Of a stretch of DNA of 64,000 bases, positions 30,268 through 58,513 are shown one piece after another (the first letter of the stretch is position 1; each line of letters opens with the position of its first letter). Position numbers and translations under genes: made by a program. This DNA is from Bactericera cockerelli. Its lineage: Eukaryota > Arthropoda > Insecta > Hemiptera > Triozidae. Below the pieces are notes generated by a model, which worked only from the letters and a program-made list of their open reading frames with translations, was not told the DNA's origin and did no database searches. The stretch is taken from the NCBI GenBank assembly GCA_024516035.1, contig CM044964.1, positions 27,622,717-27,686,716 of the forward strand, read 5' to 3'.

Positions 30268-30357
30268 ATGCCCGAGAAAATTGCTGTCCCTGTCAAAGAT
30301 GAAAAGCCAGAGAAACCCACCAAGGGTCTCAAAGGAGAGAAGAACCCTGATGAAATG
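30268..30357 (+). CDS. PSMD2: PSMD2 exon 1
   Basis: ATG in ATAATGCCC. Thirty codons ending KGEKNPDEM, donor ATG|GTAAGT. Lys/Glu/Pro-rich start as in other Rpn1 proteins. Confidence 0.9.
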
Positions 30358-35798: not shown

Positions 35799-35830
<32 letters not shown>

Positions 35831-38800
35831 CCTGTCATGTACTTACCAACAAAATCAACAAAGTATTATTTATTATTTTTTTAAGACTAAAAATTCATCT
35901 TCCTTGTAAAAAAAACAATAACAATATTGTCAATAACAAAACCTCCGTGGCTCAGTGGTTAAGAGCATTGGTTACTGATCCGGAGCTTGCGGGCTCGAAT
36001 CCCGGCCGGAGCGGAAAATTCTAACCGAGTTTTTCGTTTCCGGAATGGCATGGATGTAAAGGTAAAGTGCCCTGAAGTAATGCGAAAGCGGTTCCGGGGC
36101 ACACTTACCTTTAAAAAAACATTTAACTAAAAAAAAAAAAAACAATAACAATAATGTCTCTCTATTGTCAGGTATACAAGACATGGCTAGAGAACATCGT
36201 CCTACGTCCCACCTACAATCTCGACGTACCTGTAGATTCAGCCCGGCACAATCTGGCCTCCACATTTGTCAACGCTTTTGTGAATGCGGGATTCTCACGA
36301 GACAAGTTAGTGTCTGTGGAGGATGGAAACAAGTGGATGTACAAAAACAAGCAGCATGGTGAGTGATACGAACTTCACTCGTGAGGACAAGTGAGGAGGA
36401 TTTATTTATTTATTAACAAGTGGATGTACAAAAACAAGCAGCACGGTGAGTGATAGGACCTTCACTCGTGAGGACAAGTGAGGAGGATGGCAACAAGTAG
36501 ATGTACAAGAACAAGCAAGTCAGGCCGATTACCGTGGCTCAGTGGTTAAGAGCATTGGTTGCTGACCCGGAGGATGTGGGTTCGAATCCCGGCCGGAGCG
36601 GAAAATTCTGACCAAGTTTTTCCGTTTCCGGAATGACATGGATGTAAAGGTAATGTGCCCGGAAGTAATGCGAAAGCGGTTCCGGGGCAAAACTACCTTT
36701 TCAAAAAAAACAAAGAAAAAGGCTGGGTGAGGTTAATTTAAGTAGCTGGTTTGTCTGGGGGACGTTAAACAGGGAGAAGACCAGTTTCTCGCTAGAAAAC
36801 TATAAACCGAAAACTGACCAGCCGACCCTTATCCAAGTCCTCACGATGGTTGCTCTCACGTAGAAATACAGTAGAAATCGGTTATAACGACACCGGTTAT
36901 AACGAATAATCGGCTATAACGAACAAAATCTTTGGTCCCTTGGAGTCTTATGGAAAATTAACATATGTATCGATTATAACGAACATCGGCTATAATGAAC
37001 AAATCGGCTATAGCGAACAAATTTTGAAGTCCCAAGACCAACTTCCTATCGGTTATAACAAACATTTTTTTTTTTTTGCTATGAAGAATAAAATAGAAAA
37101 CATGTTTTATCCTGCACAAACTTGTCGATTGCTTTTTACTAGGTCCTGAAAATCTTTTACATAATTTTTTTTCATTTCTTGTTTTATTTTAGTGTTTCGT
37201 GAATCGTGAATTGCATTTGTGTTTTATTTAGTAAAAGTTTTGTTTTTAAAAAAATGTCTATTAGAAAATCTTTTACGATTGAAGAAAAATTTGCTATAAT
37301 ATGCCGATTTGACGGTGGCGAAAAATGTGCCGATTTGGCTAGGGAGTTCGAGATTCCGAGATCAACCCTCGCAGGGTTTTTAAAATGTAGAGACAAAATA
37401 ATTAACCAATTTGATAAGTGTGAATCAGTAAAAAAAATTAGAAATACTGGTCTTGATGATTTGGATGACGCACTTTTACTGTGGTTTAAACAGCAGAGAG
37501 CCAATAATATTCCTATTAATGGTCCAATACTTCAACAAAAAGCTAATGACCTTGGTAAATTATTAAATCTAAAAGATTTTGAATAATAATAATAATAATA
37601 AATATTATTATTACAATAATAATATGTATGTATGTAATAATATTGTACCTTTTATACCCTATATAGATAAAAGTACATAATATGTACCTACATATGTACA
37701 TATTATCTCTTATAACAAACATTGTTCTTTATAGACAATAAATATCGCTTATAGCGAACAAGTTCGCTATAAGCGATATATCGGTTATAGTGACAATCGG
37801 CTATAACGAACAATTTTCTCCGGTCCCTTGAAGTTCGTTATAACCGATTTCTACTGTAATAGAATATAGATAGAAAAATATAGATATAAAAAAAAAACTC
37901 ACGGGTCTTCACACAGTTGAAATATCTTGAGAACGGAAGGTTCATCATTCAGAGCCAGGGCCAAAGTGAGAGCCCTGGGGTACTCCTTGAACTTAAGGTA
38001 GTTGTTCAGGACACCATTGGTGATCACACTTCTCTCTGGCTCTTCTACGTAAAGAGCACAGCTGTGAACATTGAACATATCAAAATTTATAGTAAAATAA
38101 AATGGAACAAATTTATGAGAAAAAAATACTTGCAATATCTAATAAAACACTGCCAATTATGGACACAATACTTCCTCGTGGTTGTTTCAAAAATGAACAC
38201 AATACTTTCAAATTCTAATATTAGAAATTTCTCTGAAGTAAAATATACAAGTTAAAATAATAATAAAAAACCTACCATTATGATTTTTTTTTCCTTTTTT
38301 TCTTCTATTGTTGCTAGAAGTTTGTTTTAGGTACCTAGTTCAAAATAAATTTACAATACCTCAATGAAAACCTTAATTTTAACAAATAATATAAAATAAA
38401 TCCTGATAATGAGTTGCTTGGAAATATGTAAACTAAGATGAAAATTTGTTCCAAAATTTCATTATTGAACCATTGCATGCAGAAACAGTGATCAGTCAGT
38501 TGCTGTGTGAACACAACTCACTTGGACAGGTAAAGACAAACACGAGGGTAGTTGGTTTGGTCCATGTGTTTGTCAAGCAACTCCAGATGGTCTATCTCCA
38601 TGAGCAAGTCACATGCCTGGATCTCCGCATTGTGCTTCATGTCAAACTGAATCATGTCTTCAATGAGCTCTAGGAGTTGAGCCTTCTCATACTTGCCAGT
38701 TGACCATTCTTCAGCAATCTCTGCTTCTAGTTGTCTGAAAATTTTGAACAAGGAATCAATAATGTTATGTTTAAGGAGTAGAAAATAATGTAGAATAGTA

Positions 38801-39443
38801 AAAAATAAAAAAAAAACTTAAAAAATAAAAATATGAGTATTTAATTTTAGCAGGGCTTCCTGCAGTCATACCTACCCAAACAAGCTAATGACCTTGGTAA
38901 ATTATTAAATCTAAAAGATTTTGAATAATAATAATAATAATAAATATTATTATTACAATAATAATATGTATGTATGTAATAATATTGTACCTTTTATACC
39001 CTATATAGATAAAAGTACATAATATGTACCTACATATGTACATATTATCTCTTATAACAAACATTGTTCTTTATAGACAATAAATATCGCTTATAGCGAA
39101 CAAGTTCGCTATAAGCGATATATCGGTTATAGTGACAATCGGCTATAACGAACAATTTTCTCCGGTCCCTTGAAGTTCGTTATAACCGATTTCTACTGTA
39201 TGTGATTAAGGACTGGCCAAATTTGAAATAAAGTTGGCTGGTGAGTCAATCTTATTCAATCTTATTTTAACGAGTTTCCCCCTAGTCTGTCCCGGTAGCT
39301 CAGAGGTCCAGGTGTCTAACTGCTAATACATTGATGCGGGTTCGAAACCCAGCTGGCATATGACAAGTTCTCCTCCCATTTGGGATTTTTACCACATAAT
39401 AATATGTGGTAAAAAGCCCAAGACATCTTGGGCTTACTTCTGG

Positions 39444-39474
<31 letters not shown>

Positions 39475-42400
39475 AACTATTTGGTATTTTTCTCCTGCCT
39501 AGCCAAGAACAAGCAATGTTCCTAGGGCTAGGCAGGGTTGTGTTCCACAGTGCAGCTATTTATTATTATTATCATCATCAAACATTTCGCCTTTAATCCT
39601 TATTATCCTTCCACCTCCCTTAATGACCCCCTTATATTACTGTACCTGGTGTGAATGTGTGATTGAATGTGATTTTTCTTTCTTTTTGCTTTTCTTTTAA
39701 CTACCATTATTACTACTATTTTTATACTATCTTTCACTATTATTTCCTTTTCTTGTTTTCTATTATCTTTACTCTCTAATTGTTATTTTATTTACATTGT
39801 ACTTATACTCAAATAAATAAAGAGGTGTGCTTTGTTAAACTGTTGGCATAATGGGACTACCTGTCTTGCGCTGATAGTCTTTTTTTTACTTTCAAAAGAT
39901 TATTTTTTATTGAACAAGTTCTTTCATCTTCATAAATAAAATTTAAATGTAAAAAATAACTTATTAATAAAACGAAAATTAGGAACATGGCAAGTTTAAG
40001 TGGCCAATTATGCAAAGCATGTGTCTAAATAAAGCACTACTTATACTTATTTCCCTCTGTGTTCAGGTATGCTGAGTGCGGCCGCATCTCTCGGGCTCAT
40101 CTATCTGTGGGACGTGGACGGAGGTCTCACCCCCATCGACAAGTATCTGTACACGTCCGAAGACTACATCAAGGCGGGGGCGCTGCTCGCCCTGGGGATT
40201 GTGAACTGCGGCGTACGCAACGAGTGTGACCCCGCCCTGGCTCTGCTGAGCGACTACGTGCTCAATGATAGCAGCACGCTGAGGATAGGAGCCGTGCTGG
40301 GTAAGATAAGAGAAGATAAGATAAAAGATGAAAAAAAAAAAAAAAAAAAATATCGAGGTGGACTGGCAGATAAAATCGTATATCGATAGGTGCTGCTTTA
40401 TTCAATCTATGGTCTAAAATTAAAATGAAAAACAAGTCGCAAAAGGAAAAAAAAAAAAAAAAAAATATTTGTTTTTATTTAGAAAAGCAAGACTTTCCCT
40501 AAGCTAATACAAAAAAAAAGATATTACTATTTACTAATAAGATATTACTACGAGTATTTAATTATTTATAGGGTTATTTCGTACATAATAATAATTCTAT
40601 CATCATAGGGTGGCGTCATCGTGAACGAAGGAGCCGTGCTGGGTAAGATAAGAGAAGATAAGATAATTTGTGTTTATTTAGAAAAGCAAGACTTTCCCTA
40701 AGCTAATACAAAAAAAAGATATTACTATTTTTTACTAATAAGATATTTTTTTAGTACTAGTCTGGCTGGGGGACGTGAAACAGGGAGTAGACCAGTGTCC
40801 TGCAAGAGGACTATAAACAGAGAACAGACTAGCCAACCCTTACAAGCCAGGCTAGCTTGCAGTTTCCTAAGGGTTTAATGGCTTATAAAGAAAAGTCCAA
40901 GTCCTCATGATGGTTGATCGCACATAGAAATATGTGGTTCAGGACGAGCCAAAATAAAAATGGCTGGAGACCATCACTCACCCCTCCAGCTGTAGTCAAG
41001 CTGGCTACAACAACAACAACAATAACAACAACAACTATTTAATTATTTATAGCGTTATTTCGTACACAATAATAATTCTATTAAAAAAAAAAAATACATC
41101 CTTACAATATTAATTGAGAAAGTCACTGTGGCAGAGTGAGTTAGCGCGCTAGGCATTGCACATATGGTGACCTGGGTTCGATCCCCAGCGGTGTAGGAAT
41201 TTTTCTGCTCTGTACTTGGATGTTCGGGGTCCACTCATACCTCGTGAGAAAAAATGAGTAGCTGCTTAGATGTGATTGAATAGAGCTAATAAATGATTTT
41301 ATTGGTTGTTGTTGTTGTTGCCAGCTTGGCTACAGCTGGAGGGGTGAGTGATGGTCTCCAGCCAACTTTATTTCAAAGTTGGTTCATCCTGAACCACATA
41401 TTTCTATGTGCGATCAACCATCATGAGGACTTGGACTTTTCTTTATAAGCCATTAAACCCTTAGGAAACTGCAAGCCTGGCTTGAAAGGGTTGGCTAGTC
41501 TGTTCTCTGTTTAACGTCCCCCAGCCAGACAGCGTCAATTTTATTGGTTGTGCTTTACACAGAGATAACTCTCCTGGCGTTTAGATGTACAGTAAAAAAA
41601 CATTCGTGTTTGACTCAGTTAAATTTCTATTATAATGTCCTCTAATGAGGTATCTCAATTGTTTTTGATTCTCTCCTCAGGGCTGGGTCTAGCGTATGCA
41701 GGCACCAAGCGTCAGGAAGTAGTCACGTTGCTGCTGCCTGTTCTCACGGATAGGAAATCCACCCCTGAGGTAAGATTCATCATATTTTGTGTATGTATGT
41801 ATAAAAGTTCAAATTCAAATTCAAATTCAAATGTTTATTTATTGATTTAAAGTGCATATACAAAACAGTTAATAAAAACCAATTACATTGTTAATACACT
41901 ATAAAAAAAAAAGAGGAACAAAAAAGTAAGTTAAAAAAAAAAAGTTAACAATAAATAAAAGAATATTTTAAACAATTTGTTAGAATAAATTAAACAAGAC
42001 TTAAGAATCTGTCTCAAAAAACATCTGTTTGAGGTTAGAAATAAAAACACTCAAAGTCTGAGCGTAGTCAAGATCAGGGTGACTATTACAGAGACTCAGA
42101 ACCCTCAATATGGGTACAATATTTGAAGGAATTGCCTTAAATGGAGTATGTTGACGGCGACTAGACCTCCTTAAACTAGGTATGTTAAAAACTATTTGGG
42201 ATGACAGAAAATCACAGTCAATAATCACAAGTAATAATAATAATAATAATATCGCCTTATTTATACTGCCCGATTAGGACTATTAAGCCCCATTATTCCA
42301 GAAGTAAGCCCAAGACGCATTATTATGTGGTAAAAATCCCAAACCATTTTTTTTTTTTGGTTGGAATCGGAGGTTCCAGAGGTCGTGGGTTCGAAACCCA

Positions 42401-43808
42401 ACCGGGACATGACAAGTTATCCTCCCATTTGCATTTTTTACCACATAAGAATATGTCTTGGGCTTACTGCTGGAATAATGGGACTTTAATAGGTCTTAAT
42501 CGAGCAGTAAAAAAAAGGCGATATTATTCAATCAATCAAACCGGTTTCGTTCCGTCGTAACGGGTCGATGGACGAAGCCTCTCCACCATAGTCTATTATT
42601 ATATTTCTGATCCCTCTCAATTACTTCTAGAGTAAACCCTCTCTTTTCTATATCTGATTTCAGAGTGTCTTTGTAACGATGTTCATCATAATGTCCAAAC
42701 CATTTCAGTCTACTTTTCGACATTCTATGTTCTAAACTTTCAAATCCTAGCATGCTTCTGATGTTTTCATTTCTTATGCGATATTATTATTATTATATTC
42801 TCAAAAATCTGAATGACTTTACGTTTAAAAAAAAAAAAAAAAAAAAAAAAAGCTTTATTAGGTAGAACAAAAAATATATACAGTAGAATACAATGAAATA
42901 TAAAGATTAAACAAAAAACAAAAAGATTAAGCAAATATACAAGAAAAAAAAAGAGAATGAAGTTGAAGTTATGTCCTACCTAAAGGGCGGGTTTTTTTTT
43001 ATTTTTTAAATAGTTTATTTATTTATATTCTTTATAAAGAAACATTTATACAAAGGTACTTCTCCTAAACTTTGAAGAGCTTCTAAGAGAAGTGTGTTAC
43101 TTGCATTTTTTTTTTTTTTTTGGTTGTGGCATTGTTGCCTGTGGCAATCTCTTCCACCCAACCCCTAATCTCTCTCCTTCCCCCAGGTGGTGGCGTTCGC
43201 CGCTGTGGCCGCCTCCCTGATCTACGTAGGCTCCGGCTACCACGAGGTGGCCTCCGCCATCCTGCAGACCCTCATCGAACTCCCGGCCTCCGAGCTGCAG
43301 GACGGGCACTACTCCCGCTTCCTACCGCTGGCTCTGGCCATCACCTATTTGGGTGAGTCATTTTATTTATTTATTTACACTTTATTAGGTAATAGGACAT
43401 ATACAATACAAAAAATTACAAACGAAAATACAATATACAATAAAACAAAACAAAAAAAAAAATAAAGAAAAAATAAATAAATATATACATAATATAATGT
43501 CCTAACTAAAGGGCGGGGTTATTGCCTATGGCAATCTCTTCTATTATAAGACAATATAACACTGTATTTTTATTGCTCTTTTTTAAATACATTAAACAAT
43601 ACATTAGAAGAATTTTGTCACTTTATTGTAAAAATAATAATAATAATAAAAAATAAATATTATTATTGAATACTTTATTAATATCGGACATATATACAAA
43701 CTATAGTAATGATAAAAAAAAATTGAACAATATAAACAAGAAAAAAAGACAGGCCTGCAGACGCTCATCGAACTCCCGCTGGCTCTGGCCATCACCTATT
43801 TGGGTGAG

Positions 43809-43842
<34 letters not shown>

Positions 43843-48681: not shown

Positions 48682-48712
<31 letters not shown>

Positions 48713-51700
48713 TAAGGGTTTCACTGAAAACCCTGCAACGTGGGCAGATATTACTAAAAAGTTGACGTTTCGTGTTCCAGGGCCTCGTCATCCAGCGGTA
48801 GCAGCAAGGAATCAACAGGCGCAGGCGACAAGAAGGAGAAGAAAGAGGAGACTAAGAAGGAAGACAAAGCCGCCAAGGAGAAGAAAGAGAAGGAAAAGGA
48901 GAAGGACTTGAGTTCCATGCAAGCTGTGGCCGCACTGGGTATGTGTAGGAATCCAAAATTTGTTTCCTATAAAACTGCGAAAAGATGCCAAAACGTGGTA
49001 ATCAATATTTTTCAAAATTTTCAGGAGAGCAAAAATACGTTTTTCTTAAAAAAATGAAAACATGGTATTGGATTTTGTCACGATTTGACATCTTTAAGTA
49101 AGGTCAATTATAAGAAAGTAATCAGATTTTATGATGTTAACATTCAATAACAGGTTTTGCCCTCTTACGATCAAACTCAAATAACTCAAAGTAAACTTAA
49201 CATGTTTTTTTTTTAAAACCTCAATATCTCATGAACGGTACATCGTAGAATAATAATGATTACACTGGTCGATAGAGCTTTAGTAGGAATATACTAATAA
49301 CTCAATTTCGAAAAAAGTTGGTTACCACGTTTTGGCATCTTTTCACAATATGAGATGTTTTTTCTGCTCTGTACTTAATAATAATAATGATCTTTTTGAT
49401 CTTTATTTTTTTATCTTTTGTGTATACATTTTTGTGTTCCCGTAAAGTACTAGTGTACTCAACTTAGATGTTGAGGTGCACTCATATCATACCTCGTGAG
49501 GAAAAACAAGTTTCTGTTTAATGGGAGCCGCGACTAGTAGCAGAATTATGGGTAAATGATACACAAGGAAAAAAAAAGAAACGGAAAAGTCCTATATTTT
49601 TGTCTTATAATATCCACTGCTATAATAAGACCATTTTATTTTTAAAGAGAATAATTCATTAATAAAAAACATTCACGATGGTAATAATAATATCGCATTA
49701 TTTATACTGCAGTATTAGGACTATTATGTCCCATTATTCCAGCAGTAAGCACAAGCAAGACTTACAATTACGTGGTAAAATTCCCAAATGAGAGGATAAC
49801 TTGTCATGTCCCTGCTGGGTTTCGGACCGAGTGCCGTCTTTACCACTGATCTGCCGGGACTGTATTTAACATTAAAAAAAAAAACATTACGAACATAGTA
49901 TTCATATTCTGGCTGGGGGACTATAAACAGGGAGTAGACCAGCATTGGCTTGGTTCTGGGGGCAATTGTCAATTATTAGCCTCCTTGTAAAGACAGTGGT
50001 AGAAGTGCCGAGTCATTCCTCCACTGTCTGGCTACCATCGTTCACGATGACGCCACCCTATGATGGTTAATATTGACCTGTGAAAAGATGCCAAAACGTG
50101 GTAACCAACATTTTTCAAATTTTTCAGGAGAGCAAAAATACGTTTTTCTAAAAAAATGAAAACATGGCATTGGATTTTGCCACGATTTGACATCTATAAG
50201 TAAGGTCAATTATAAGAAAGTAATCAGATTTTATGATGTTAACATTCAATAACAGGTTTTGCCCTCTTACGATCAAACTCAAATAACTCAAAATAAACTT
50301 AACATGTTTTTTTTTTTTTCAACCTCAATATCTCATGAACGGTACATCGTAGAATAATAATGATTACACTGGTCGATTGAGCTCGTCACATTTAGTAGGA
50401 ATATACTAATAACTTAATTTCGAAAAAAATGTTGGTTACCACGTTTTGGCATCTTTTCACTTATTTCATTGTATGGGCATGCTTTTATTCGTATTCTCTT
50501 TTCCACTCAGGCGTGGGAGTGGTCGCCCTGGGCGAGGAAATCGGCTCGGACATGTGCGCCCGCCTCTTCGGTCAGCTGGGCCGCTATGGGGAGGCGCCCG
50601 TGAGACGGGCAGTGCCCCTGGCTATAGCCCTGACCTCCATGTCCCGGCCCGCGCTCAATGTGATAGACGTGCTGAATAAGTATTCGCACGATTTGGACGA
50701 AGAAGTGGCTCACAATGCTATCTTCTCCATGGGACTAGTGGGCGCGGGGACCAACAATGCGAGGTGAGTTTTTTGCTCTTGAAACTGTTCTTTGCTATCT
50801 TCTCCATGGGACTGGTGGGGGCGGGCACCAACAATGCGAGGTGAGTTTTTTTCTTTGCTATCTTCTCTCCATGGGACTGGTGGGGGCGGGCACCAACAAT
50901 GCGAGGTGAGTTTTTTTCTTTGCTATCTTCTTCTCCATGGGACTGGTGGGGGCGGGCACCAACAATGCGAGGTGAGTTTTTTTCTTTGCTATCTTCTTCT
51001 CCATGGGACTGGTGGGGGCGGGCACCAACAATGCGAGGTGAGTTTTTTTCTTTGCTATCTTCTTCTCCATGGGACTGGTGGGGGCGGGCACCAACAATGC
51101 GAGGTGAGTTTTTTTCTTTGCTATCTTCTTCTCCATGGGACTGGTGGGGGCGGGCACCAACAATGCGAGGTGAGTTTTTTTCTTTGCTATCTTCTTCTCC
51201 ATGGGACTGGTGGGGGCGGGCACCAACAATGCTACGTGAGTTTGTTTTCTTTGCTATCTTCTCTCCCAAGTGTTTCTTTTTATTTGCTATCTTCTCTCCC
51301 AAGTACTCGCACGATCTGGACGAGGAGGTGGCTCACAATGCTATCTTCTCCATGGGACTGGTGGGGGCGGGAACCAACAATGCGAGGTGAGTTTTTTTTC
51401 TTTGCTATCTTCTCTCCCAAGTGTTTCTTTTTCTTTGCTATCTTCTCTCCCAAGTGTTTCTTTTTCTTTGCTATCTTCTTCTCCATGGGAATGGTCGGGG
51501 CGGGAACCAACAATGCGAGGTGAGTTTTTTTTTCTTTGCTATCTTCTCTCCCATGTACTTGCACGAAACTGTTCTTTGCTATCTTCTCCATGGGACTGGT
51601 GGGCGCGGGAACCAACAATGCGAGGTGAGTTGTTTTCTTTGCTATCTTCTCTCCCAAGTGTTTCTTTTTCTTTGCTATCTTCTCTCCCGTGAGACGGGCA

Positions 51701-54700
51701 GTGCCCCTGGCCATAGCGCTGACCTCCATGTCCCGGCCCGCGCTCAATGTGATAGACGTGCTGAATAAGTACTCGCACGATTTGGACGAGGAAGTGGCTC
51801 ACAATGCTATCTTCTCCATGGGACTGGTGGGCGCGGGGACCAACAATGCGAGGTGAGTTTGTTTTCTTTGCTATCTTCTCTCCCAAGTGTTTCTTTTTCT
51901 TTGCTATCTTCTCTCCCAAGTACTTGCATGAAACTGTTCTTTGCTATCTTCTCTCCCAAGTACTCGCACGATCTGGACGAGGAAGTGGCTCACAATGCTA
52001 TCTTCTCCATGGGACTGGTGGGGGCGGGGACCAACAATGCGAGGTTAGTTTTTTTCTTTGCTATCTTCTCTCCCAATTGTTTCTTTTTCTTTGCTATCTT
52101 CTCTCCCAATTGTTTCTTTTTCTTTGCTATCTTCTCTCCCAAGTACTCGCACGATCTCGATGAGGAAGTGGCTCATAATGCTATCTTCTCCATGGGTCTG
52201 GTATGGGCGGGAACCAACAATGCGAGGTGAGTTTTTTTCTTTGCTATCTTCTCTCCCAAGTGTTTCTTTTTCTTTGCTATCTTCTCTCCCAAGTGTTTCT
52301 TTTTCTTTGCTATCTTCTTTCCCAAGTGTTTCTTTTTCTTTGCTATCTTCTCTCCCAAGTGTTCCTTTTTCTTTGCTATCTTCTCTCCCAAGTGTTTCTT
52401 TTTCTTTGCTATCTTCTCTCCCAAGTGTTTCTTTTTCTTTGCTATCTTCTCTCCCAAGTGTTTCTTTTTCTTTGCTATCTTCTCTCCCAAGTGTTTCTTT
52501 TTCTTTGCTATCTTCTCTCCCAAGTGTTTCTTTTTCTTTGCTATCTTCTCTCCCAAGTACTCTCACGATCTTGATGAGGAGGTGGCTCACAATGCTATCT
52601 TCTCCATGGGTCTGGTGGGGGCGGGAACCAACAATGCGAGGTGAGTTGTTTTTCTATTGAAACTGTTCTTTGCTATCTTCTCTCTCTTGAAACTGTTCTT
52701 TGCTATCTTCTCTCTCTTGAAACTGTTCTTTGCTATCTTCTCTCTCTTGAAACTGTTCTTTGCTATCTTCTCTCTCTTGAAACTGTTCTTTGCTATCTTC
52801 TCTCTCTTGAAACTGTTCTTTGCTATCTTCTCTCTCTTGAAACTGTTCTTTGCTATCTTCTCTCTCTTGAAACTGTTCTTTGCCATCTTCTCCATGGGAC
52901 TGCTGGGGGCGGGAACCAACAATGCGAGGTTAGTTTTTTTCTGTTGAAACTGGTAGTCAAGTAGTTAACGCGTTAGTCTAGTAATCCAGGTAGCGTCGGG
53001 ATGCGTTGGTTCGAATCCCACCCAGTGCACGAATTTTTCCTCATTTATTTGAGTTTGTGACCACATAATAATAAGACTCTGAGGGTTAGTTAGGTGGTAG
53101 AAAATACTTTTTCTAAACACCAGGCGAGCATTAACCTCTCCTGTTGTTTACCTTCCACTAAAGAGTATTATTATTATTAAAGTTATCATATTTGTGTTAA
53201 TCACTTTCGTGGTATCACAACTAGTCAATCTCGTTTTACCAAATCTACGCTGAAACCGGGACTTGAACTACCCGCCTCCAGGTTACAAGTCCGCTGTCCG
53301 CCGCCTTATCAATCAAGCAACTGAGGTCGGTTATTATTATTATAAAGTTAAAAAAAAGTTAAAAGTAGCTTGATCGATAAGGCGGCGGACTTGTAACCTG
53401 GAGGTCGGTGGTTCAAGTCCCGGTTTCAGCGTAGATTTAGTCATTTGAGTTTGAGTAGTTGTGATATCACGAAAGTGATTAACACAAGTATGATAACTTT
53501 TTTTTATATTTCGTGCTGACCCCCAGACTAGCGACCATGCTGCGACAGCTGGCCCAGTACCACGTGAAGAACACGGGTCACCTGTTCATGGTGCGCATAG
53601 CCCAGGGTCTTCCACCCAACCCTTGGGTGGAAGAGATCTTAGCCTGGGGTATTATTATAATTATATTTTTTTTTATCGTAGGGCTTTAATGCACATCTCA
53701 AAGTGAGAAGATTTTTTTTTGTTATTTTATTTATTTATTTTATTTATTTCATTTATTTATTTTATTTATTTTATTTATTTATTTTATTTATTTCATTTCA
53801 TTTATTTATTTATTTCATTTATTTTATTTATTTTATCTATTTTATTTATTTATTATTATTATTATATTTCGTGTGTACCCCCAGACTAGCGACCATGCTG
53901 CGACAGCTGGCCCAGTACCACGTGAAGAACACGGGTCACCTGTTCATGGTGCGCATAGCCCAGGGTCTTCCATCTTAGCCTGGGGTATTATTATTATTTA
54001 TTTTTTTATCGTAGGGCTATACACATCTCAAAGTGAGAAGATTTTTTGTTGTTGTTATTTTATTTATTTATTTATTTATTTTATTTTATTTCATTTATTT
54101 TATTTATTTTGCTTATTTATTATTATTATTATATCTCGTGCTGACCCCCAGACTAGCGACCATGCTGCGACAGCTGGCCCAGTACCACGTGAAGAACACG
54201 GGTCACCTGTTCATGGTGCGCATAGCCCAGGGTCTTCTATCTTAGCCTGGGGTATTATTATAATTATTAGTGGAAGAGATCTTAGCCTGGGGTATTATTT
54301 TTTTTTATTATTATTTATCGTAGGGCTCTAATACACATCTCACAGTGAGAAGATTTTTTTGTTTGTTGTTATTTTATTTATTTATTTTATTTATTTAATT
54401 TATTTTATTTATTTATTTTATTTTATTTATTTCATTTATTTTTTTTATTTATTTATTTTATTTATTTATTTTATTTTTTTTTTCATTTATTTCATTTATT
54501 TTATTTATTTCATTTATTTTATTTATTTCATTTATTTTATTTATTTTATTTATTTTATTATTATATTTCGTGTTGACCCCCAGACTAGCGACCATGCTGC
54601 GGCAGCTGGCCCAGTACCACGTGAAGAACACGGGTCACCTGTTCATGGTGCGCATAGCCCAGGGTCTTCTATCTTAGCCTGGGGTATTATTATAATTATT

Positions 54701-57700
54701 AGTGGAAGAGATCTTAGCCTGGGGTATTATTTTTTTTATTATTATTTATCGTAGGGCTTTAATACACATCTCACAGTGAGAAGATTTTTTTGTTTGTTGT
54801 TATTTTATTTATTTCATTTATTTTATTTATTTTATTTATTTATTTTATTTTATTTATTTCATTTATTTATTTTATTTATTTTATTTTATTTTTTTATTTT
54901 ATTTTTTTATTTTTTTCCATTTATTTCATTTATTTTATTTATTTCATTTATTTCATTTATTTTATTTATTTCATTTATTTTATTTATTTTATTTATTTTA
55001 TTTATTTTATTTATTTTATTTATTTTATTTATTTTATTTATTTTATTTATTTTATTTATTTTATTTATTTTATTTATTTTATTTATTTTATTTATTTATT
55101 ATTATTATATCTCGTGTTGACCCCCAGACTAGCGACCATGCTGCGGCAGCTGGCCCAGTACCACGTGAAGAACACGGGTCACCTGTTCATGGTGCGCATA
55201 GCCCAGGGTCTTCCATCTTAGCCTGGGGTATTATTATAATTATTAGTGGAAGAGATCTTAGCCTGGGGTATTATTATAATTATTAGTGGAAGAGATCTTA
55301 GCCTGGGGTATTATTATAATTATTAGTTTAAGAGATCCTAGCCTGGGGTATTATTATAATTAATAGTGGAAGAGATCTTAGCCTGGGGTATTATTATTAT
55401 TTTATTTTTTGTATCGTAGGGCTTTAATACACATCTCAAAGTGAGAAGATTTTTTTGTTTGTTGTTATTTTATTTATTTATTTATTTTATTTATTTTATT
55501 TATTTTATTTATTTTATTTATTTTATTTATTTTATTTATTTATTTTATTTATTTCATTTATTTTATTTATTTCATTTATTTTATTTATTTAATTTATTTT
55601 ATTTATTTCATTTTTTTTATTTATTTTATTTATTTTTTTATTTCATTTATTTTATTTATTTATTATTATTATTCTATCTCCTGTTGACCCCCAGACTAGC
55701 GACCATGCTGCGACAGCTGGCCCAGTACCACGTGAAGAACACGGGTCACCTGTTCATGGTGCGCATAGCCCAGGGTCTTCCACCCAACCCTTGGGTGGAA
55801 GAGATCTTAGCCTGGGGTATTATTATAATTATATTTTTTTTATCGTAGGGCTTTAATGCACATCTCAAAGTGAGAAGATTTTTTTTTTGTTATTTTATTT
55901 ATTTATTTTATTTTTTTTTTATTATTTTTTTTTATTTATTTTTTTATTTCATTTATTTTATTTATTTCATTTTTTTTTTTTTTTGATTTATTTTATATAT
56001 TTTATTTATTTTATCAATTTTATTTATTTTATATATTTTATTTATTTTATTTATTTAATTTATTTTATTTATTTTATTTATTTCATTTATCTATTTATTT
56101 ATTTTCTTTTATTTATTTCATTTATTTTTTATTTCATTTATTTATTTTATTTATTATTTTATTTATTTATTTCATTTATTTTATTTATTTTATTTATTAT
56201 TCTTATTATATTTCGTGTGGACCCCCAGACTAGCGACCATGCTGCGGCAGCTGGCCCAGTACCACGTGAAGAACACGGGTCACCTGTTCATGGTGCGCAT
56301 AGCCCAGGGTCTTCCACCCAACCCTTGGGTGGAAGAGATCTTAGCCTGGGGTATTATTATAATTATATTTTTTTTTATCGTAGGGCTTTAATGCACATCT
56401 CAAAGTGAGAAGATTTTTTTTTGTTATTTTATTTATTTATTTTATTTATTTCATTTATTTATTTTATTTATTTTATTTATTTATTTTATTTATTTCATTT
56501 CATTTATTTATTTATTTCATTTATTTTATTTATTTTATCTATTTTATTTATTTATTATTATTATTATATTTCGTGTGTACCCCCAGACTAGCGACCATGC
56601 TGCGACAGCTGGCCCAGTACCACGTGAAGAACACGGGTCACCTGTTCATGGTGCGCATAGCCCAGGGTCTTCCATCTTAGCCTGGGGTATTATTATTATT
56701 TATTTTTTTATCGTAGGGCTATACACATCTCAAAGTGAGAAGATTTTTTGTTGTTGTTATTTTATTTATTTATTTATTTATTTTATTTTATTTCATTTAT
56801 TTTATTTATTTTGCTTATTTATTATTATTATTATATCTCGTGCTGACCCCCAGACTAGCGACCATGCTGCGACAGCTGGCCCAGTACCACGTGAAGAACA
56901 CGGGTCACCTGTTCATGGTGCGCATAGCCCAGGGTCTTCCATCTTAGCCTGGGGTATTATTATAATTATTAGTGGAAGAGATCTTAGCCTGGGGTATTAT
57001 TTTTTTTTATTATTATTTATCGTAGGGCTCTAATACACATCTCACAGTGAGAAGATTTTTTTGTTTGTTGTTATTTTATTTATTTATTTTATTTATTTAA
57101 TTTATTTTATTTATTTATTTTATTTTATTTATTTCATTTATTTTTTTTATTTATTTATTTTATTTATTTATTTTATTTTTTTTTTCATTTATTTCATTTA
57201 TTTTATTTATTTCATTTATTTTATTTATTTCATTTATTTTATTTATTTTATTTATTTTATTTATTTTATTATTATATTTCGTGTTGACCCCCAGACTAGC
57301 GACCATGCTGCGGCAGCTGGCCCAGTACCACGTGAAGAACACGGGTCACCTGTTCATGGTGCGCATAGCCCAGGGTCTTCTATCTTAGCCTGGGGTATTA
57401 TTATAATTATTAGTGGAAGAGATCTTAGCCTGGGGTATTATTTTTTTTATTATTATTTATCGTAGGGCTTTAATACACATCTCACAGTGAGAAGATTTTT
57501 TTGTTTGTTGTTATTTTATTTATTTTATTTATTTTATTTATTTATTTTATTTTATTTATTTCATTTATTTATTTTATTTATTTTATTTTATTTTTTTATT
57601 TTATTTTTTTATTTTTTTCCATTTATTTCATTTATTTTATTTATTTCATTTATTTTATTTATTTCATTTATTTTATTTATTTTATTTATTTTATTTATTT

Positions 57701-58513
57701 TATTTATTTTATTTATTTTATTTATTTTATTTATTTTATTTATTTATTATTATTATATCTCGTGTTGACCCCCAGACTAGCGACCATGCTGCGGCAGCTG
57801 GCCCAGTACCACGTGAAGAACACGGGTCACCTGTTCATGGTGCGCATAGCCCAGGGTCTTCCATCTTAGCCTGGGGTATTATTATAATTATTAGTGGAAG
57901 AGATCTTAGCCTGGGGTATTATTATAATTATTAGTGGAAGAGATCTTAGCCTGGGGTATTATTATAATTATTAGTTTAAGAGATCCTAGCCTGGGGTATT
58001 ATTATAATTAATAGTGGAAGAGATCTTAGCCTGGGGTATTATTATTATTTTATTTTTTGTATCGTAGGGCTTTAATACACATCTCAAAGTGAGAAGATTT
58101 TTTTGTTTGTTGTTATTTTATTTATTTATTTATTTTATTTATTTTATTTATTTTATTTATTTTATTTATTTATTTTATTTATTTCATTTATTTTATTTAT
58201 TTCATTTATTTTATTTATTTAATTTATTTTATTTATTTCATTTTTTTTATTTATTTTATTTATTTTATTTATTTATTATAATTATTATATCTCGTGTGGA
58301 CCCCCAGACTAGCGACCATGCTGCGACAGCTGGCCCAGTACCACGTGAAGAACACGGGTCACCTGTTCATGGTGCGCATAGCCCAGGGCCTCACCCACAT
58401 GGGCAAGGGGACCGTCTCCCTCTCCCCCTTCCACACGGACCGCCAGATTCTCAACCCTGTGGCCCTGGCCGGGCTCCTCATCGTGCTGACCAGCTTCCTC
58501 GACACCAAGAACA
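30268..58513 (+). CDS. PSMD2: PSMD2/Rpn1, 26S proteasome base subunit (3' end outside window)
   Basis: Thirteen exons with consistent phases give 824 codons plus one base. The human protein is 908 aa, so one or more last exons lie beyond 64000. The order matches Rpn1: a charged N-terminus ([17 protein letters not shown]), the helical N-terminal domain, the proteasome/cyclosome repeats ([59 protein letters not shown]), and a Lys/Glu-rich linker ([19 protein letters not shown]). Rpn1 is the toroidal receptor of the regulatory particle that binds ubiquitin, shuttle factors such as Rad23 and the deubiquitinase Usp14. The gene has unusual introns: exon-border copies in five of them, a captured inverted copy of its own exons 3-4 in intron 6, and LINE, SINE and foldback insertions. 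Confidence 0.93.
31046..31100. repeat. Perfect 26-bp hairpin in PSMD2 intron 1
   Basis: Arms 31046-31071 and 31075-31100 are exact inverse complements around a 3-nt loop (AAC). It ends about 45 bp before the exon 2 acceptor, within the normal branch-site zone. No known family recognised. Confidence 0.8.
31146..31492 (+). CDS. PSMD2: PSMD2 exon 2
   Basis: Acceptor CATTCAG; encodes [17 protein letters not shown] through [13 protein letters not shown]-terminal helical region of Rpn1. Donor AG|GTAAGT, phase 2. Confidence 0.93.
31947..32159 (+). CDS. PSMD2: PSMD2 exon 3 (original copy)
   Basis: Acceptor TTTTCAG; encodes [18 protein letters not shown] to PRVCLYLS. Donor AA|GTGAGT. A nearly identical inverted copy lies at 38522-38734. 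Confidence 0.93.
32622..32780 (+). CDS. PSMD2: PSMD2 exon 4 (original copy)
   Basis: Acceptor TTCACAG; encodes [17 protein letters not shown] to FQLCEDP. Donor CC|GTGAGT. The inverted copy lies at 37903-38061. Confidence 0.93.
32828..33815 (-). mobile_element. Tigger/pogo-like element, internally deleted (intron 4)
   Basis: 988 bp, TA-flanked, with terminal inverted repeats starting CAGTAGAAATCGGTTATAAC. The many internal GTTATAACCGAT/CGCTATA words are subterminal repeats. It encodes only the N-terminal DNA-binding part of a transposase on the minus strand (33430-33098). The same 988-bp element is at 36869-37856 in opposite orientation. Confidence 0.85.
33098..33430 (-). CDS. Truncated Tigger/pogo transposase (CENP-B-type HTH only)
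   Basis: 110 aa from [16 protein letters not shown] psq/CENP-B-like helix-turn-helix ([20 protein letters not shown], residues about 24-43) and the beginning of the second HTH ([20 protein letters not shown]). The frame stops after LNLKDFE, and the DDE catalytic domain is absent by deletion. Such a piece could bind transposon ends without cutting. There is an upstream in-frame ATG, but the MSIRKS start fits the family. Confidence 0.75.
   Translation of the reverse strand: MSIRKSFTIEEKFAIICRFDGGEKCADLAREFEIPRSTLAGFLKCRDKIINQFDKCESVKKIRNTGLDDLDDALLLWFKQQRANNIPINGPILQQKANDLGKLLNLKDFE
33873..33995 (-). repeat. SINE S2 fragment
   Basis: Minus strand carries the S2 body and ATT tail without the tRNA head. 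Confidence 0.55.
34000..34290 (+). repeat. tRNA-derived SINE (family S1), longest copy
   Basis: Head with GGTTAAGCACTTGCTTGCCA and GGTTTGATCCC (B box), body with GTGTGCTTGTGTTGACCC and CACCCATCAGAGG, end with CAGCAGCTCCTGTTTCATGA and A-run. It lies in PSMD2 intron 4. Confidence 0.65.
34585..35300 (-). mobile_element. 5'-truncated CR1/Jockey-type LINE tail
   Basis: The frame 35291-34950 (minus) reads [19 protein letters not shown] and [18 protein letters not shown], the usual C-terminal tail downstream of the RT in Jockey/CR1 elements. A 3' UTR follows, ending in a short ACCAT-type tandem tail (near 34590-34607). In PSMD2 intron 4, antisense. Confidence 0.75.
35381..35558 (+). CDS. PSMD2: PSMD2 exon 5
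   Basis: Acceptor TTACAG; encodes [19 protein letters not shown] to [11 protein letters not shown]. Donor GAG|GTATAT, somewhat weaker than the other donors. Phase 0. Confidence 0.92.
35941..36120 (+). repeat. tRNA-derived SINE (family S3)
   Basis: CCGTGGCTCAGTGGTTAAG (A box), GGCTCGAATCCCGG (B box), body GGAATGGCATGGATGTAAAG and GCGAAAGCGGTTCCGGGGC. A second copy is at 36528-36715. It ends about 50 bp before the exon 6 acceptor. Confidence 0.7.
36172..36358 (+). CDS. PSMD2: PSMD2 exon 6
   Basis: Acceptor TTGTCAG; encodes [19 protein letters not shown] to [12 protein letters not shown]. Donor G|GTGAGT, phase 1. The last ~30 nt plus donor and about 40 nt of intron are duplicated downstream. 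Confidence 0.93.
36329..36520 (+). repeat. PSMD2: Exon 6 border copies (2.5 units)
   Basis: Unit: AACAAGTGGATGTACAAAAA, the donor GTGAGTGATA, then TTCACTCGTGAGGACAAGTG. The true border is at 36358/36359. A second unit (36415-36488, with donor) and a partial third (36489-36520, without donor) follow, separated by a short ATTT run. Confidence 0.85.
36528..36715 (+). repeat. tRNA-derived SINE (family S3), second copy
   Basis: Same head and body as 35941-36120, with B box GGTTCGAATCCCGG. Followed by a short S7-type body fragment (GGCTGGGTGAGGTTAATTTA) and a repeat around 36760-36865 also seen near 40760 and 41530. Confidence 0.7.
37254..37586 (+). CDS. Truncated Tigger/pogo transposase, second copy
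   Basis: Same 110-aa product as 33430-33098, here on the plus strand and therefore sense to PSMD2. Helix-turn-helix region only, no DDE domain. Identity of the two copies indicates recent duplication. Confidence 0.75.
   Translation: MSIRKSFTIEEKFAIICRFDGGEKCADLAREFEIPRSTLAGFLKCRDKIINQFDKCESVKKIRNTGLDDLDDALLLWFKQQRANNIPINGPILQQKANDLGKLLNLKDFE
37903..38061 (-). pseudogene. PSMD2: Inverted copy of PSMD2 exon 4
   Basis: Complementary to exon 4 with the same translation and intact splice-site sequences, but on the strand opposite to the gene. It cannot be spliced into PSMD2 mRNA. It can pair with exon 4 in the pre-mRNA. Confidence 0.88.
38522..38734 (-). pseudogene. PSMD2: Inverted copy of PSMD2 exon 3
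   Basis: Complementary to exon 3 with identical translation ([18 protein letters not shown] onward). The intron flanks are mostly conserved. Near 38780-38860 the copy differs from the original at several positions (for example GCCCTGCTAAA for GTCCTGATAAA). Confidence 0.88.
38882..39198 (+). mobile_element. Tigger right-end fragment closing the composite
   Basis: Matches 37540-37856 over its full 317 bp, including subterminal repeats and the terminal CTACTG followed by TA. Confidence 0.85.
39283..39450 (+). repeat. tRNA-derived SINE (family S2)
   Basis: CCCGGTAGCTCAGAGGTCC, GGTTCGAAACCC, S2 body, then a long A-run (about 39445-39470). In PSMD2 intron 6. Confidence 0.65.
39475..40066. other. 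3' part of PSMD2 intron 6
   Basis: AT-rich and T/C-rich DNA with (ATT)n and no gene. Leads into the exon 7 acceptor GTGTTCAG. Confidence 0.4.
40067..40300 (+). CDS. PSMD2: PSMD2 exon 7 (start of PC repeats)
   Basis: Encodes [54 protein letters not shown] and LRIGAVL. The most conserved part of Rpn1. GC-rich relative to the surrounding introns. Donor G|GTAAGA. Confidence 0.95.
40278..40752 (+). repeat. PSMD2: Exon 7 border copy with intron segment
   Basis: The border text AGGAGCCGTGCTG|GGTAAGA with ATAAGAGAAGATAAGATAA recurs at 40626-40665. The intron text AGAAAAGCAAGACTTTCCC also occurs twice (about 40480 and 40680). Between them is a fragment of the GTCATCGTGAACG repeat. Exon border and intron were duplicated as one segment of about 200 bp. 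Confidence 0.8.
40758..41030 (+). repeat. Interspersed repeat, left member of an inverted pair
   Basis: Contains CTGGCTGGGGGACGTGAAAC, TGATGGTTGATCGCACATAG and CCATCACTCACCCCTCCAGC followed by CAACAACAA. Inverted copy at 41308-41532; fragments at about 27290 and 36760. Confidence 0.6.
41113..41285 (+). repeat. tRNA-derived SINE (family S4)
   Basis: CTGTGGCAGAGTGAGTTAGC (A box), GGGTTCGATCCCC (B box), body GCTCTGTACTTGGATGTTCG and CATACCTCGTGAG. The body end recurs near 30832-30868 and 49460-49505. Confidence 0.6.
41308..41532 (-). repeat. Interspersed repeat, right member of an inverted pair
   Basis: Inverse complement of 40758-41030. The pair can fold around the S4 SINE between them. Confidence 0.6.
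41681..41769 (+). CDS. PSMD2: PSMD2 exon 8
   Basis: Acceptor CTCCTCAG; encodes [20 protein letters not shown] and TDRKSTPE, a PC-repeat unit. Donor GAG|GTAAGA, phase 0. Confidence 0.93.
41800..42232 (-). mobile_element. 5'-truncated LINE tail
   Basis: The minus-strand frame 42228-42001 ([38 protein letters not shown]) is the C-terminal tail of a Jockey/CR1-type ORF2. A short TTTGAA tandem tail closes it near 41806-41832. In PSMD2 intron 8. Confidence 0.65.
42236..42520. repeat. Two SINE S2 copies back to back, opposite strands
   Basis: 42236-42345 is an S2 body on the minus strand; 42360-42520 is S2 on the plus strand with GGTTCGAAACCCAACC (B box). Together they form an inverted pair capable of a hairpin in the transcript. 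Confidence 0.6.
42530..42780 (-). mobile_element. RTE-like LINE C-terminal fragment
   Basis: The minus-strand frame reads [31 protein letters not shown] and [14 protein letters not shown]. The xLKWFGH pattern is the C-terminal signature after the RT in many insect LINEs. No RT core is present. Confidence 0.6.
42835..43000 (-). repeat. LINE/SINE 3' tail (CCCGCCCTTTAGGTAGGAC)
   Basis: On the minus strand CCCGCCCTTTAGGTAGGACA leads to TAATAAAGCT and, after it, an oligo-A-like T-run on the plus strand. The same tail is at 43355-43545 and 60505-60690. Confidence 0.5.
43187..43352 (+). CDS. PSMD2: PSMD2 exon 9
   Basis: Acceptor CCCCCAG; encodes [20 protein letters not shown] to [16 protein letters not shown] repeats. 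Very GC-rich. Donor G|GTGAGT, phase 1. Its 3' border is recopied four times downstream. Confidence 0.93.
43355..43545 (-). repeat. LINE/SINE 3' tail, inserted beside the exon 9 donor
   Basis: Plus strand shows ACACTTTATTAGGTAATAGG then GTCCTAACTAAAGGGCGGGG and GCCTATGGCAATCTCTTC. Same repeat as 42835-43000 and 60505-60690, starting within about 10 bp of the donor. Confidence 0.5.
43753..44055 (+). repeat. PSMD2: Exon 9 border copies (four units)
   Basis: Unit: CACTACTCCCGCTTCCTACC, GCTGGCTCTGGCCATCACC, TATTTGG|GTGAGT, then an (ATT)n run. Units lie at 43753 (exon text internally deleted between ACTCCC and GCTGGC), 43841, 43918 and 43995. Each keeps a donor. Single-base differences (CTCTAGCC, CTCTCGCC) show they are not identical. 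Confidence 0.88.
44060..47285 (+). mobile_element. CR1/Jockey-like LINE, cut off inside the RT (intron 9)
   Basis: Two-ORF non-LTR element in PSMD2 intron 9, sense strand. ORF1 is intact; ORF2 has an endonuclease with one frameshift and an RT that ends after [15 protein letters not shown]. The 3' half of the RT and the tail are missing, the reverse of the usual 5' truncation, so a later deletion or insertion removed them. The right neighbour is the end of a CAGGGTG-like repeat. Confidence 0.8.
44330..45577 (+). CDS. LINE ORF1 protein with PHD finger
   Basis: 415 aa. An N-terminal PHD-type zinc finger, residues 3-54, with Cys/His in the order CGKC, CQGC, HHGC and CEDC. A helical middle region follows ([30 protein letters not shown]), then a Ser/Thr-rich linker. 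The C-terminal globular part reads [16 protein letters not shown] to [15 protein letters not shown] and resembles an RNA-binding fold. PHD-bearing ORF1 proteins are known from CR1/Jockey-group LINEs, where ORF1 binds the element RNA. The frame is intact. It starts MECGKCKV with the context ACCATGG. Confidence 0.8.
   Translation: MECGKCKVVVSSEVGYVKCQGCRTRYHHGCSLSSTTWKSKSQTLKDEWRCEDCRKGKQAATDEKVDEDEKSKDSGEPVLSLNIVKSGLVSFFGSKKFNITSSLSSVEQNLKSHVATESKKTTDLVIALCSKIDELFHVIKNIQTSQTNLIQVNHNIREELKLAQEKICTLEVKMQNSNGVASPHDKRDKITNSYSTVTAHASSLHPVTTTVSTSRTNVLTSIGRPNVSSSQTSTIAATSTNAAVVSRTGNSTISRTTNGSLPSAVTGVRDDPAAATGEEDSWNLVQRRSRTSNRKTKAGPKIGKKQTDQNCPKVAMVRPREPGPKKRALFVSRFDPNVTSNEIKQMINASVPLIHLQVSKIQTRRQELYSSFHVEVLLSDIEKIDDVSIWPDGCLIKPYYGRLLPEIVIDNSPDS
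45600..47311 (+). pseudogene. LINE ORF2 remnant: APE endonuclease plus partial RT
   Basis: Frame one (45600 to about 45764) gives [13 protein letters not shown] and [11 protein letters not shown], then a stop. The reading continues in another frame with [32 protein letters not shown], then FVPDRVV-type linker text, [20 protein letters not shown] and [20 protein letters not shown]. The catalytic YxDD motif was never reached, so the element cannot move by itself. Confidence 0.8.
47290..47445. repeat. End of an unidentified CACCCTG-type repeat
   Basis: Contains AAACAGGGATTTGGCCATAA and ends CGGGACACCCTGTA. The terminus resembles the CAGGGT ends of the foldback elements, but no inverted partner is visible. 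Confidence 0.4.
47446..47815 (+). repeat. Pyrimidine minisatellite before exon 10
   Basis: Tandem units built from CTATTTTTTTCATGTC and TTTTTTTCATTCTATT, about 30-40 bp each, about ten copies. It runs directly into the exon 10 acceptor, so the polypyrimidine tract of that splice site is hugely extended. Confidence 0.85.
47826..48018 (+). CDS. PSMD2: PSMD2 exon 10
   Basis: Acceptor CCCCCGCAG; encodes [39 protein letters not shown] and [10 protein letters not shown]. Donor GG|GTGGGT, weaker than the consensus; chosen because it keeps frame with exon 11. Confidence 0.9.
48035..48375 (+). repeat. S7-type SINE body, head degenerate
   Basis: Contains CCAGCTGGGTGAGGTTATTG, CGAATGGAGGGTAAAAACCC and TCAGGACGTTAAAACC, matching the body of the 5S-headed SINE at 28771 and of the tRNA-headed copy at 10735. 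The left part has CAACCTCAACCATGAGGTTG, also seen in the 10735 copy. Confidence 0.55.
48376..48780. other. 3' part of PSMD2 intron 10
   Basis: AT-rich, with an A-run near 48690-48710. No gene or clear repeat. Confidence 0.35.
48781..48938 (+). CDS. PSMD2: PSMD2 exon 11 (charged linker)
   Basis: Acceptor GTTCCAG; encodes [20 protein letters not shown], a Lys/Glu repeat and [12 protein letters not shown] flexible charged loop at this position is a known feature of Rpn1. Donor G|GTATGT. Confidence 0.9.
48979..49344. mobile_element. MITE with GAAAAGATGCCAAAACG ends, copy 1
   Basis: Ends GAAAAGATGCCAAAACGTGG and its inverse complement. Interior of about 370 bp is non-coding (CAGGAGAGCAAAAATACG, CATGAACGGTACATCGTAG). 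The second copy is at 50082-50458 in the same intron and orientation. Confidence 0.75.
49685..49862 (-). repeat. tRNA-derived SINE (family S2)
   Basis: Minus strand: GTCCCGGCAGATCAGTGGTA, S2 body, ATT tail. In PSMD2 intron 11. Confidence 0.6.
49905..50065 (-). repeat. Interspersed repeat (GTCATCGTGAACGATGGTAG), third copy
   Basis: Inverse complement of the repeats at 4208 and 7425. Confidence 0.55.
50082..50458. mobile_element. MITE with GAAAAGATGCCAAAACG ends, copy 2
   Basis: Close copy of 48979-49344. Its right end lies about 50 bp before the exon 12 acceptor, within the normal branch-point range. Confidence 0.75.
50511..50763 (+). CDS. PSMD2: PSMD2 exon 12
   Basis: Acceptor TTCCACTCAG; encodes [39 protein letters not shown] and [15 protein letters not shown]-terminal PC repeats of the toroid. 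Donor AG|GTGAGT, phase 2. Its 3' border is copied at least 15 times in intron 12. Confidence 0.95.
50785..52945 (+). repeat. PSMD2: Exon 12 border array (15 extra copies with donor site)
   Basis: Unit: TTTGCTATCTTCTCCATGGG, ACTGGTGGGGGCGGG, ACCAACAATGCGAG|GTGAGT. Candidate donors lie at 50841, 50906, 50972, 51038, 51104, 51170, 51236, 51387, 51520, 51625, 51853, 52044, 52227, 52641 and 52929. The first seven are 65-66 bp apart. Two read GTTAGT (52044, 52929) and one has CTACGTGAG (51236). One unit (about 51688-51852) includes a much longer exon piece, from GTGAGACGGGCAGTGCCCC on. Two shorter sub-arrays lie inside: a 33-bp unit around CTTCTCTCCCAAGTG (52235-52555, about ten copies) and a 30-bp unit around CTTGAAACTGTT (52655-52880, about eight copies). 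Confidence 0.92.
52955..53130 (+). repeat. tRNA-derived SINE (family S5)
   Basis: AGTCAAGTAGTTAACGCG (A box), GGTTCGAATCCCACCC (B box), body GACCACATAATAATAAGAC with GTTAGGTGGTAGAAAA. Separates the exon 12 array from the exon 13 array. Confidence 0.6.
53195..53505. repeat. Opposed pair of S6 SINEs
   Basis: 53195-53330 on the minus strand and 53352-53505 on the plus strand share GGCGGCGGACTTGTAACCTG and GGTTCAAGTCCCGG-type B boxes. Inverted with a gap of about 20 bp, so the RNA can fold into a hairpin of more than 100 bp. Confidence 0.65.
53515..58307 (+). repeat. PSMD2: Exon 13 border array (11 extra copies with acceptor site)
   Basis: Each unit has a (TTTTA/TTTA)n run, TGACCCCCAG, then about 82 nt of exon 13 (ACTAGCGACCATGCTGC to CATAGCCCAGGG), then TCTTCC or TCTTCT and ATCTTAGCCTGGGGTATT. 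Exon-like starts lie at 53527, 53885, 54152, 54584, 55128, 55695, 56229, 56587, 56854, 57295 and 57776; the genuine one is 58308. Copies 1-6 and 7-12 correspond one to one (offset 2702 bp for the first three), so a block of six was duplicated as a whole. Only the last unit continues into the rest of the exon. Confidence 0.93.
58308..58513 (+). CDS. PSMD2: PSMD2 exon 13 (genuine)
   Basis: Encodes [38 protein letters not shown] and [13 protein letters not shown]. Phase matches exon 12 (AG|A). Donor A|GTGAGT. The remaining Rpn1 C-terminus (expected to begin with an Ile-Leu-Gly-Lys type segment) was not found up to 64000. Confidence 0.93.

Follow-up and report, generated by a model that had tools for sequence, protein, structure and literature searches.

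Copies of exon borders in the introns of the PSMD2 gene of Bactericera cockerelli differ from their exons mostly at synonymous positions

The PSMD2 (Rpn1) gene of Bactericera cockerelli raises the question of how pieces of its exons, mostly with a splice site attached, came to recur in its introns, and why these pieces still resemble coding sequence. We analyzed a window of 64,000 nucleotides (assembly GCA_024516035.1, contig CM044964.1, positions 27,622,717 to 27,686,716 of the forward strand); all coordinates below are those of the window.

The gene and the copies in its introns

The 13 visible exons join into an open frame of 824 amino acids, with GT and AG at all junctions. The translation matched the Pfam families PF17781 and PF01851 (RPN1_RPN2_N and PC repeats) and the PSMD2 chains in the PDB (E 7.2e-281). 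The D. citri PSMD2 protein agrees with it at 91% over the whole query and at 94% of aligned columns, and the non-psyllid bugs named next among the protein matches reach at most 74%. Two PSMD2 proteins, P0002 and P0033, are annotated in D. citri on contigs of equal listed length; P0033 matches from exon 5 onward and is possibly a paralogue or an assembly duplicate. GC3 is 0.49-0.62 in exons 1-6 and 0.60-0.90 in exons 7-13, and is higher in the exons with copies (one-sided P 0.024). Exon GC steps up between exons 6 and 7, from 0.45-0.48 to 0.53-0.66.

30268..58513, plus strand: PSMD2/Rpn1 exons 1-13, coding for the first 824 amino acids; the gene extends further
50511..50763, plus strand: exon 12, coding, from open-frame joining
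58308..58513, plus strand: exon 13, coding, from open-frame joining
36328..36518, plus strand: exon 6 end with donor, an 87-bp unit repeated 1.9 times, plus a decayed further piece (tandem-repeat scan, BLAST, change count)
40287..41081, plus strand: exon 7 end with intron 7 start, duplicated at 342 bp and interrupted by sequence that looks by eye like a transposable element
43754..44058, plus strand: four copies of the exon 9 end with donor, in 77-bp units, and an interior exon 9 piece (tandem-repeat scan, BLAST)
50793..52942, plus strand: 15 copies of the exon 12 end with donors, arrayed in 66-bp, 33-bp and 30-bp repeats
53527..57856, plus strand: 11 exon 13 start copies with acceptor, dimeric at an offset of about 2.7 kb (tandem-repeat scan, BLAST)
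36866..38883, minus strand: inverted copy of 31799-33818, including exons 3 and 4, inside intron 6

The border copies are real. A BLAST search of each exon against the whole window recovered those listed in the preliminary description for the ends of exons 6, 9 (four) and 12 (15) and the start of exon 13 (11); the exon 7 copy was not among the BLAST matches and was confirmed separately. The copies sit in four introns, not five as first described, and derive from five exon borders. BLAST matches and pieces added by hand gave 34 pieces for the analysis of changes: two from exon 6, one from exon 7, five from exon 9, 15 from exon 12 and 11 from exon 13. The observation that the copied piece mostly includes the splice site holds, with two exceptions noted below; the stated 30-80 nt of exon does not, the actual range being 13-167 nt.

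The exon 6 end copy at 36415 has 29 exact nucleotides in BLAST, and inspection of the junction by eye showed a 7-nt match, GGAGGAT. A second, decayed piece of exon 6 at 36484-36518, spotted by eye and then scored, has no splice junction. The exon 7 copy retains 14 exact exon nucleotides at 40629-40642, 342 bp past their source. BLAST places the exon 9 end copies at 43776, 43841, 43918 and 43995, and an interior exon 9 piece without a junction at 43754-43778. The 15 exon 12 matches are spread across 50793-52928. All 11 exon 13 copies span exon positions 1-81; copies 1-5 are offset from copies 7-11 by 2,702, 2,702, 2,702, 2,711 and 2,648 bp, and copy 6 has its counterpart in exon 13, 2,613 bp away. 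In structure the arrays are simple tandem repeats (66 bp x 7.1, 33 bp x 9.8, 77 bp x 3.6 and 30 bp x 8.0), made like minisatellites of several units arranged head to tail.

The inverted copy, which the preliminary description lacks, aligns over 2,021 positions at 99.46% and runs from within intron 2, through exons 3 and 4 and the intron between them, into intron 4. Exons 3 and 4 are identical in both copies, all 11 differing alignment positions lying outside them. Judged from sequence, 31799-33818 and 36866-38883 could form a long duplex in the pre-mRNA. Copies of what we take to be a pogo/Tigger-like element, with ends such as CAGTAGAAATCGGTTATAACGAAC, lie at 32826-33818, 36866-37858 and 38879-39200. 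Three further features were classified by eye: LINE-like sequence in intron 9 (44150-47330), in which 419 codons at 44318-45574 form a stop-to-stop frame; a pair of MITE-like elements in intron 11 whose ends are inverted (48975-49346 and 50078-50460, 93.5% identical); and a long, reverse-transcriptase-like stop-to-stop frame on the plus strand at 23064-26549.

Exon borders and the geometry of duplication

Donor-side borders recur downstream of their source exon and the acceptor-side border of exon 13 recurs upstream of it, as tandem duplication requires. If a tandem duplication takes in exon sequence and is to be tolerated, it has to cross a border, because one confined to the exon alters the protein and is eliminated. 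Geometry and selection thus account for the presence of the splice site, and no special process is needed to explain it. The earlier argument that random duplication would not respect exon borders so often was half right: within PSMD2, families that span a border are in modest excess over those confined to introns, in a post hoc test on few families.

Local direct repeats (dust-filtered, at least 30 bp, 80% identity, less than 3 kb apart, with the low-complexity intron repeats 43399 and 47438 left out) form 17 families in the window, 12 of them inside the gene, and five of these 12 touch a border. By eye, five of the other seven are transposon copies (32850, 35945, 36877, 37537 and 48975) and two (40467 and 40547) are parts of the exon 7 family, so that all five of the in-gene duplication families judged not to be transposable elements touch a border. 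Random placement of families with hand-chosen lengths gave a product of chances of 2.5e-5, or 1.2e-4 without the array part of intron 12. Without that part, the chance of at least five border families is 7e-3 given eight families and 0.05 given twelve. From the density outside the gene about 2.6 intron-only families are expected, and none was seen. We discarded a Fisher comparison of inside with outside (5/5 vs 0/5) as invalid, given that only PSMD2 borders were scored and outside families cannot touch them. Copies without a border also occur, namely the inverted whole exons 3 and 4 and the interior exon 9 piece.

Synonymous bias of the copies

The 34 pieces carry 32 distinct changes relative to their exons, a feature missing from the preliminary description, and these are mostly synonymous: 25 on a conservative count (P 2.5e-8) and 27 if each change is read within the codon that the copy has, with 4, 2 and 26 changes at codon positions 1, 2 and 3. 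Matched random placement gave a mean of 9.6 synonymous changes in 32 and a maximum of 19 over 20,000 trials. With exon 12 left out, eight of nine changes are synonymous (P 4e-4); among the exon 12 copies only, the figure is 14 of 18 (P 4e-5), or 12 of 18 under a stricter rule (P 1.4e-3). A copy freed from the protein is expected, from the number of sites, to gain about three times as many amino-acid-changing as synonymous differences. The copies depart from that neutral proportion, and those of exon 12 differ from one another mostly synonymously, as repeats under concerted evolution do.

Of the five amino-acid-changing differences, four lie in exon 12 copies (R>T at the edge of copy 7, and L>M, G>W and V>L in copies 9, 13 and 15, respectively), and the fifth is a stop in the second piece of exon 6. 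Two chimeric exon 12 pieces, both short and located near 51553 and 51920, were excluded from the 32; counted by hand, they hold roughly two amino-acid changes and a single synonymous one. In the long exon 12 copies 8, 11, 12, 13 and 14 we observed 0, 0, 0, 1 and 0 amino-acid changes; free decay at the same divergence predicts about 7-37 per copy and is rejected by each. Copy 14 has 11 synonymous changes and no others in 86 nt, and copy 11 has five and no others in 167 nt. This argument is independent of any clock, since exon and copy have diverged for equal time. The shortage of amino-acid-changing differences implies that the copies' sequence was constrained by the protein until recently. For copies 13 and 14 of exon 12, divergence from the exon is 0.58 per synonymous site.

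Clean flank alignments were limited to the exon 13 acceptor side and exon 9. The exon 13 copies are nearly identical and their acceptor-side flank is variable (1 of 81 vs 7 of 24 sites, P 1e-4; P 0.054 for synonymous sites alone). Changes between AT and GC run evenly in both directions by hand count, and GC-biased conversion is unsupported.

Proposed exchange with the working exon, and its rivals

We propose that the copies are minisatellite-like arrays that arose from border-spanning duplications and are refreshed by ongoing exchange with the coding exon, a scheme to which we give an even chance of being correct. Tandem duplications would by chance have crossed exon-intron borders and been tolerated where the outermost junction stayed intact, and some (exons 9, 12 and 13) would have expanded into arrays. 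Array copies and the working exon would then swap sequence by unequal crossing-over and gene conversion, including between different alleles. Each copy would descend recently from a coding exon end and so differ from it mostly synonymously. The refreshing source is most likely the coding exon or an unseen functional paralogue. The arrays, their tie to exon borders, the synonymous bias and the mosaic exon 12 copies are observed; that the bias stems from the neighboring coding exon, and not from a further functional PSMD2 locus, we infer.

The exon 12 copies are mosaic. A four-gamete test over 49 nt of exon end and intron start found 10 of 33 recoded character pairs incompatible (7 distinct site pairs, Rm 3), which speaks for exchange, although repeated mutation could mimic a mosaic. 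The higher GC3 of the exons with copies also counts in its favor. In toy simulations, none of them fitted to the data, anchored slippage, in which contraction turns a copy into the exon end (two seeds per setting, population 60), gave N/S of 0.86-1.77 at all six settings. We therefore rejected anchored, one-chromosome slippage as a sufficient cause, the low N/S not being reproduced. The equally schematic exchange simulation (nine settings, two seeds each, arbitrary mutation scale) gave 1.08, 0.31 and 0.28 with conversion alone, 1.11 and 0.47 with crossing-over alone, and 0.51, 0.07, 0.12 and 0.02 with inter-allelic unequal exchange plus exon conversion. Low values (0.02-0.12) thus appeared in three of the four settings with both processes, and the five single-process settings ranged from 0.28 to 1.11. 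Several points count against exchange. The three favorable settings yielded too little synonymous divergence, 0.6-2.9 changes per copy vs 5-11 in the real long copies; alleles within one species would seldom reach the 0.58 of copies 13 and 14; near-identity of the exon 13 copies contrasts with their variable flank; the two chimeric exon 12 pieces add amino-acid changes; and the evenness of AT/GC change lends no support to GC-biased conversion. If exchange occurs, the working exon 12 should segregate the array's synonymous variants.

Old synonymous divergence with few amino-acid changes could also mean that the copies were recently imported, either from a second, diverged PSMD2 locus that is functional or from an introgressed allele, the imported sequence being dead thereafter. 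The two annotated D. citri proteins are consistent with such a locus, but P0033 may be a duplicate produced by assembly or annotation. Exons 6 and 9 show the bias too, so import would have to happen more than once along the gene; we consider this unlikely. Quite unlikely in our judgment is a border-specific process (R-loops, a GC/AT step or splice-linked breakage) as the maker of the duplications. It would account for all five non-transposon families lying at borders and for the missing intron-only families, yet these are only five events tested post hoc, the bias is partly geometric, and border copies may merely persist longer, being refreshed from the exon. Plain tandem duplication through slippage or the repair of breaks, with dead copies decaying freely, fits the minisatellite anatomy of the arrays and the GGAGGAT match at exon 6. 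The preliminary description had offered slippage or repair of this kind, and it founders on the shortage of amino-acid-changing differences: plain decay is rejected by the overall bias and separately by each of the five long exon 12 copies, and the account as a whole is decidedly improbable. An assembly artefact would explain the dimeric exon 13 array and the near-identity of the inverted copy of exons 3 and 4, but misassembly alone would not create coding-like changes in the copies of several exons, and its probability is very slight indeed.

It is also very improbable that the copies are coding alternative exons under direct selection. GTGAGT is retained in 13 of the 15 exon 12 copies, and four have a polypyrimidine tract and AG directly at their start; an unused GTGAGA within exon 12 (position 90) could, by eye, in principle reach those acceptors in frame. 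The other eleven copies lack AG at the start, the bias is also present at exons 6 and 9, and the four copies with both splice sites are all 83 nt long and out of frame:

51304..51386, plus strand: 83-nt decoy exon with acceptor CCCAAG and donor GTGAGT, out of frame (copy 8)
51961-52043, 52144-52226 and 52558-52640, plus strand: three further 83-nt decoy exons of the same kind

Inserted after exon 12, any of the four leads to a stop at amino acid 784; replacing exon 12, two stop at amino acids 676-677 and two continue frame-shifted through the visible exons. We rejected in-frame use of these four 83-nt copies on their length and phase. Altogether 15 decoy donors and 11 decoy acceptors, duplicates of the real sites, are present in intron 12. 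By a small matrix built from PSMD2 itself, 12 of the 15 donors equal the true donor's score, and all 11 acceptors score 5.9-8.2 vs 5.5 for the true acceptor. The intron is thus a natural test case for splice-site choice.

Parts of this arrangement have counterparts elsewhere. A single tandem duplication across an intron-exon boundary created a new intron in potato RdRp (PMC4974935); there too the duplicated segment brings splice signals, whereas PSMD2 has many copies within existing introns, still coding-like. Intron gain by exonic tandem duplication is described for Drosophila (PMC2891723), and the Rogers AGGT model, as cited in PMC4974935, likewise has tandem duplication supply the splice sites; unlike these, no new intron is apparent in the DNA of PSMD2. 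Polyubiquitin, whose repeats evolve in concert (PMC10457151), shares with it tandem coding repeats, synonymous differences and unequal crossing-over or conversion, but those repeats are translated and the PSMD2 copies are intronic. New Daphnia introns have internal and exon-edge direct repeats, attributed to staggered breaks (PMC4202315); these match exon edges as in PSMD2, over 4-12 bp there vs up to 167 nt of exon here. At the level of titles and abstract openings, with few subscription papers covered, we did not find multi-exon border arrays with mostly synonymous divergence.

The intronic copies and the working exon may even constitute one recombining pool, in which the intron would store exon ends compatible with the protein and the working end would regularly be replaced from that store; we put this somewhat below an even chance. 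If it is true, purifying selection on the protein extends into silent intron DNA. If exchange with the working exon does occur, an essential housekeeping gene maintains a silent bank of its own exon edges, kept coding-like by that exchange, and the line between exon and intron in selection would become blurred.
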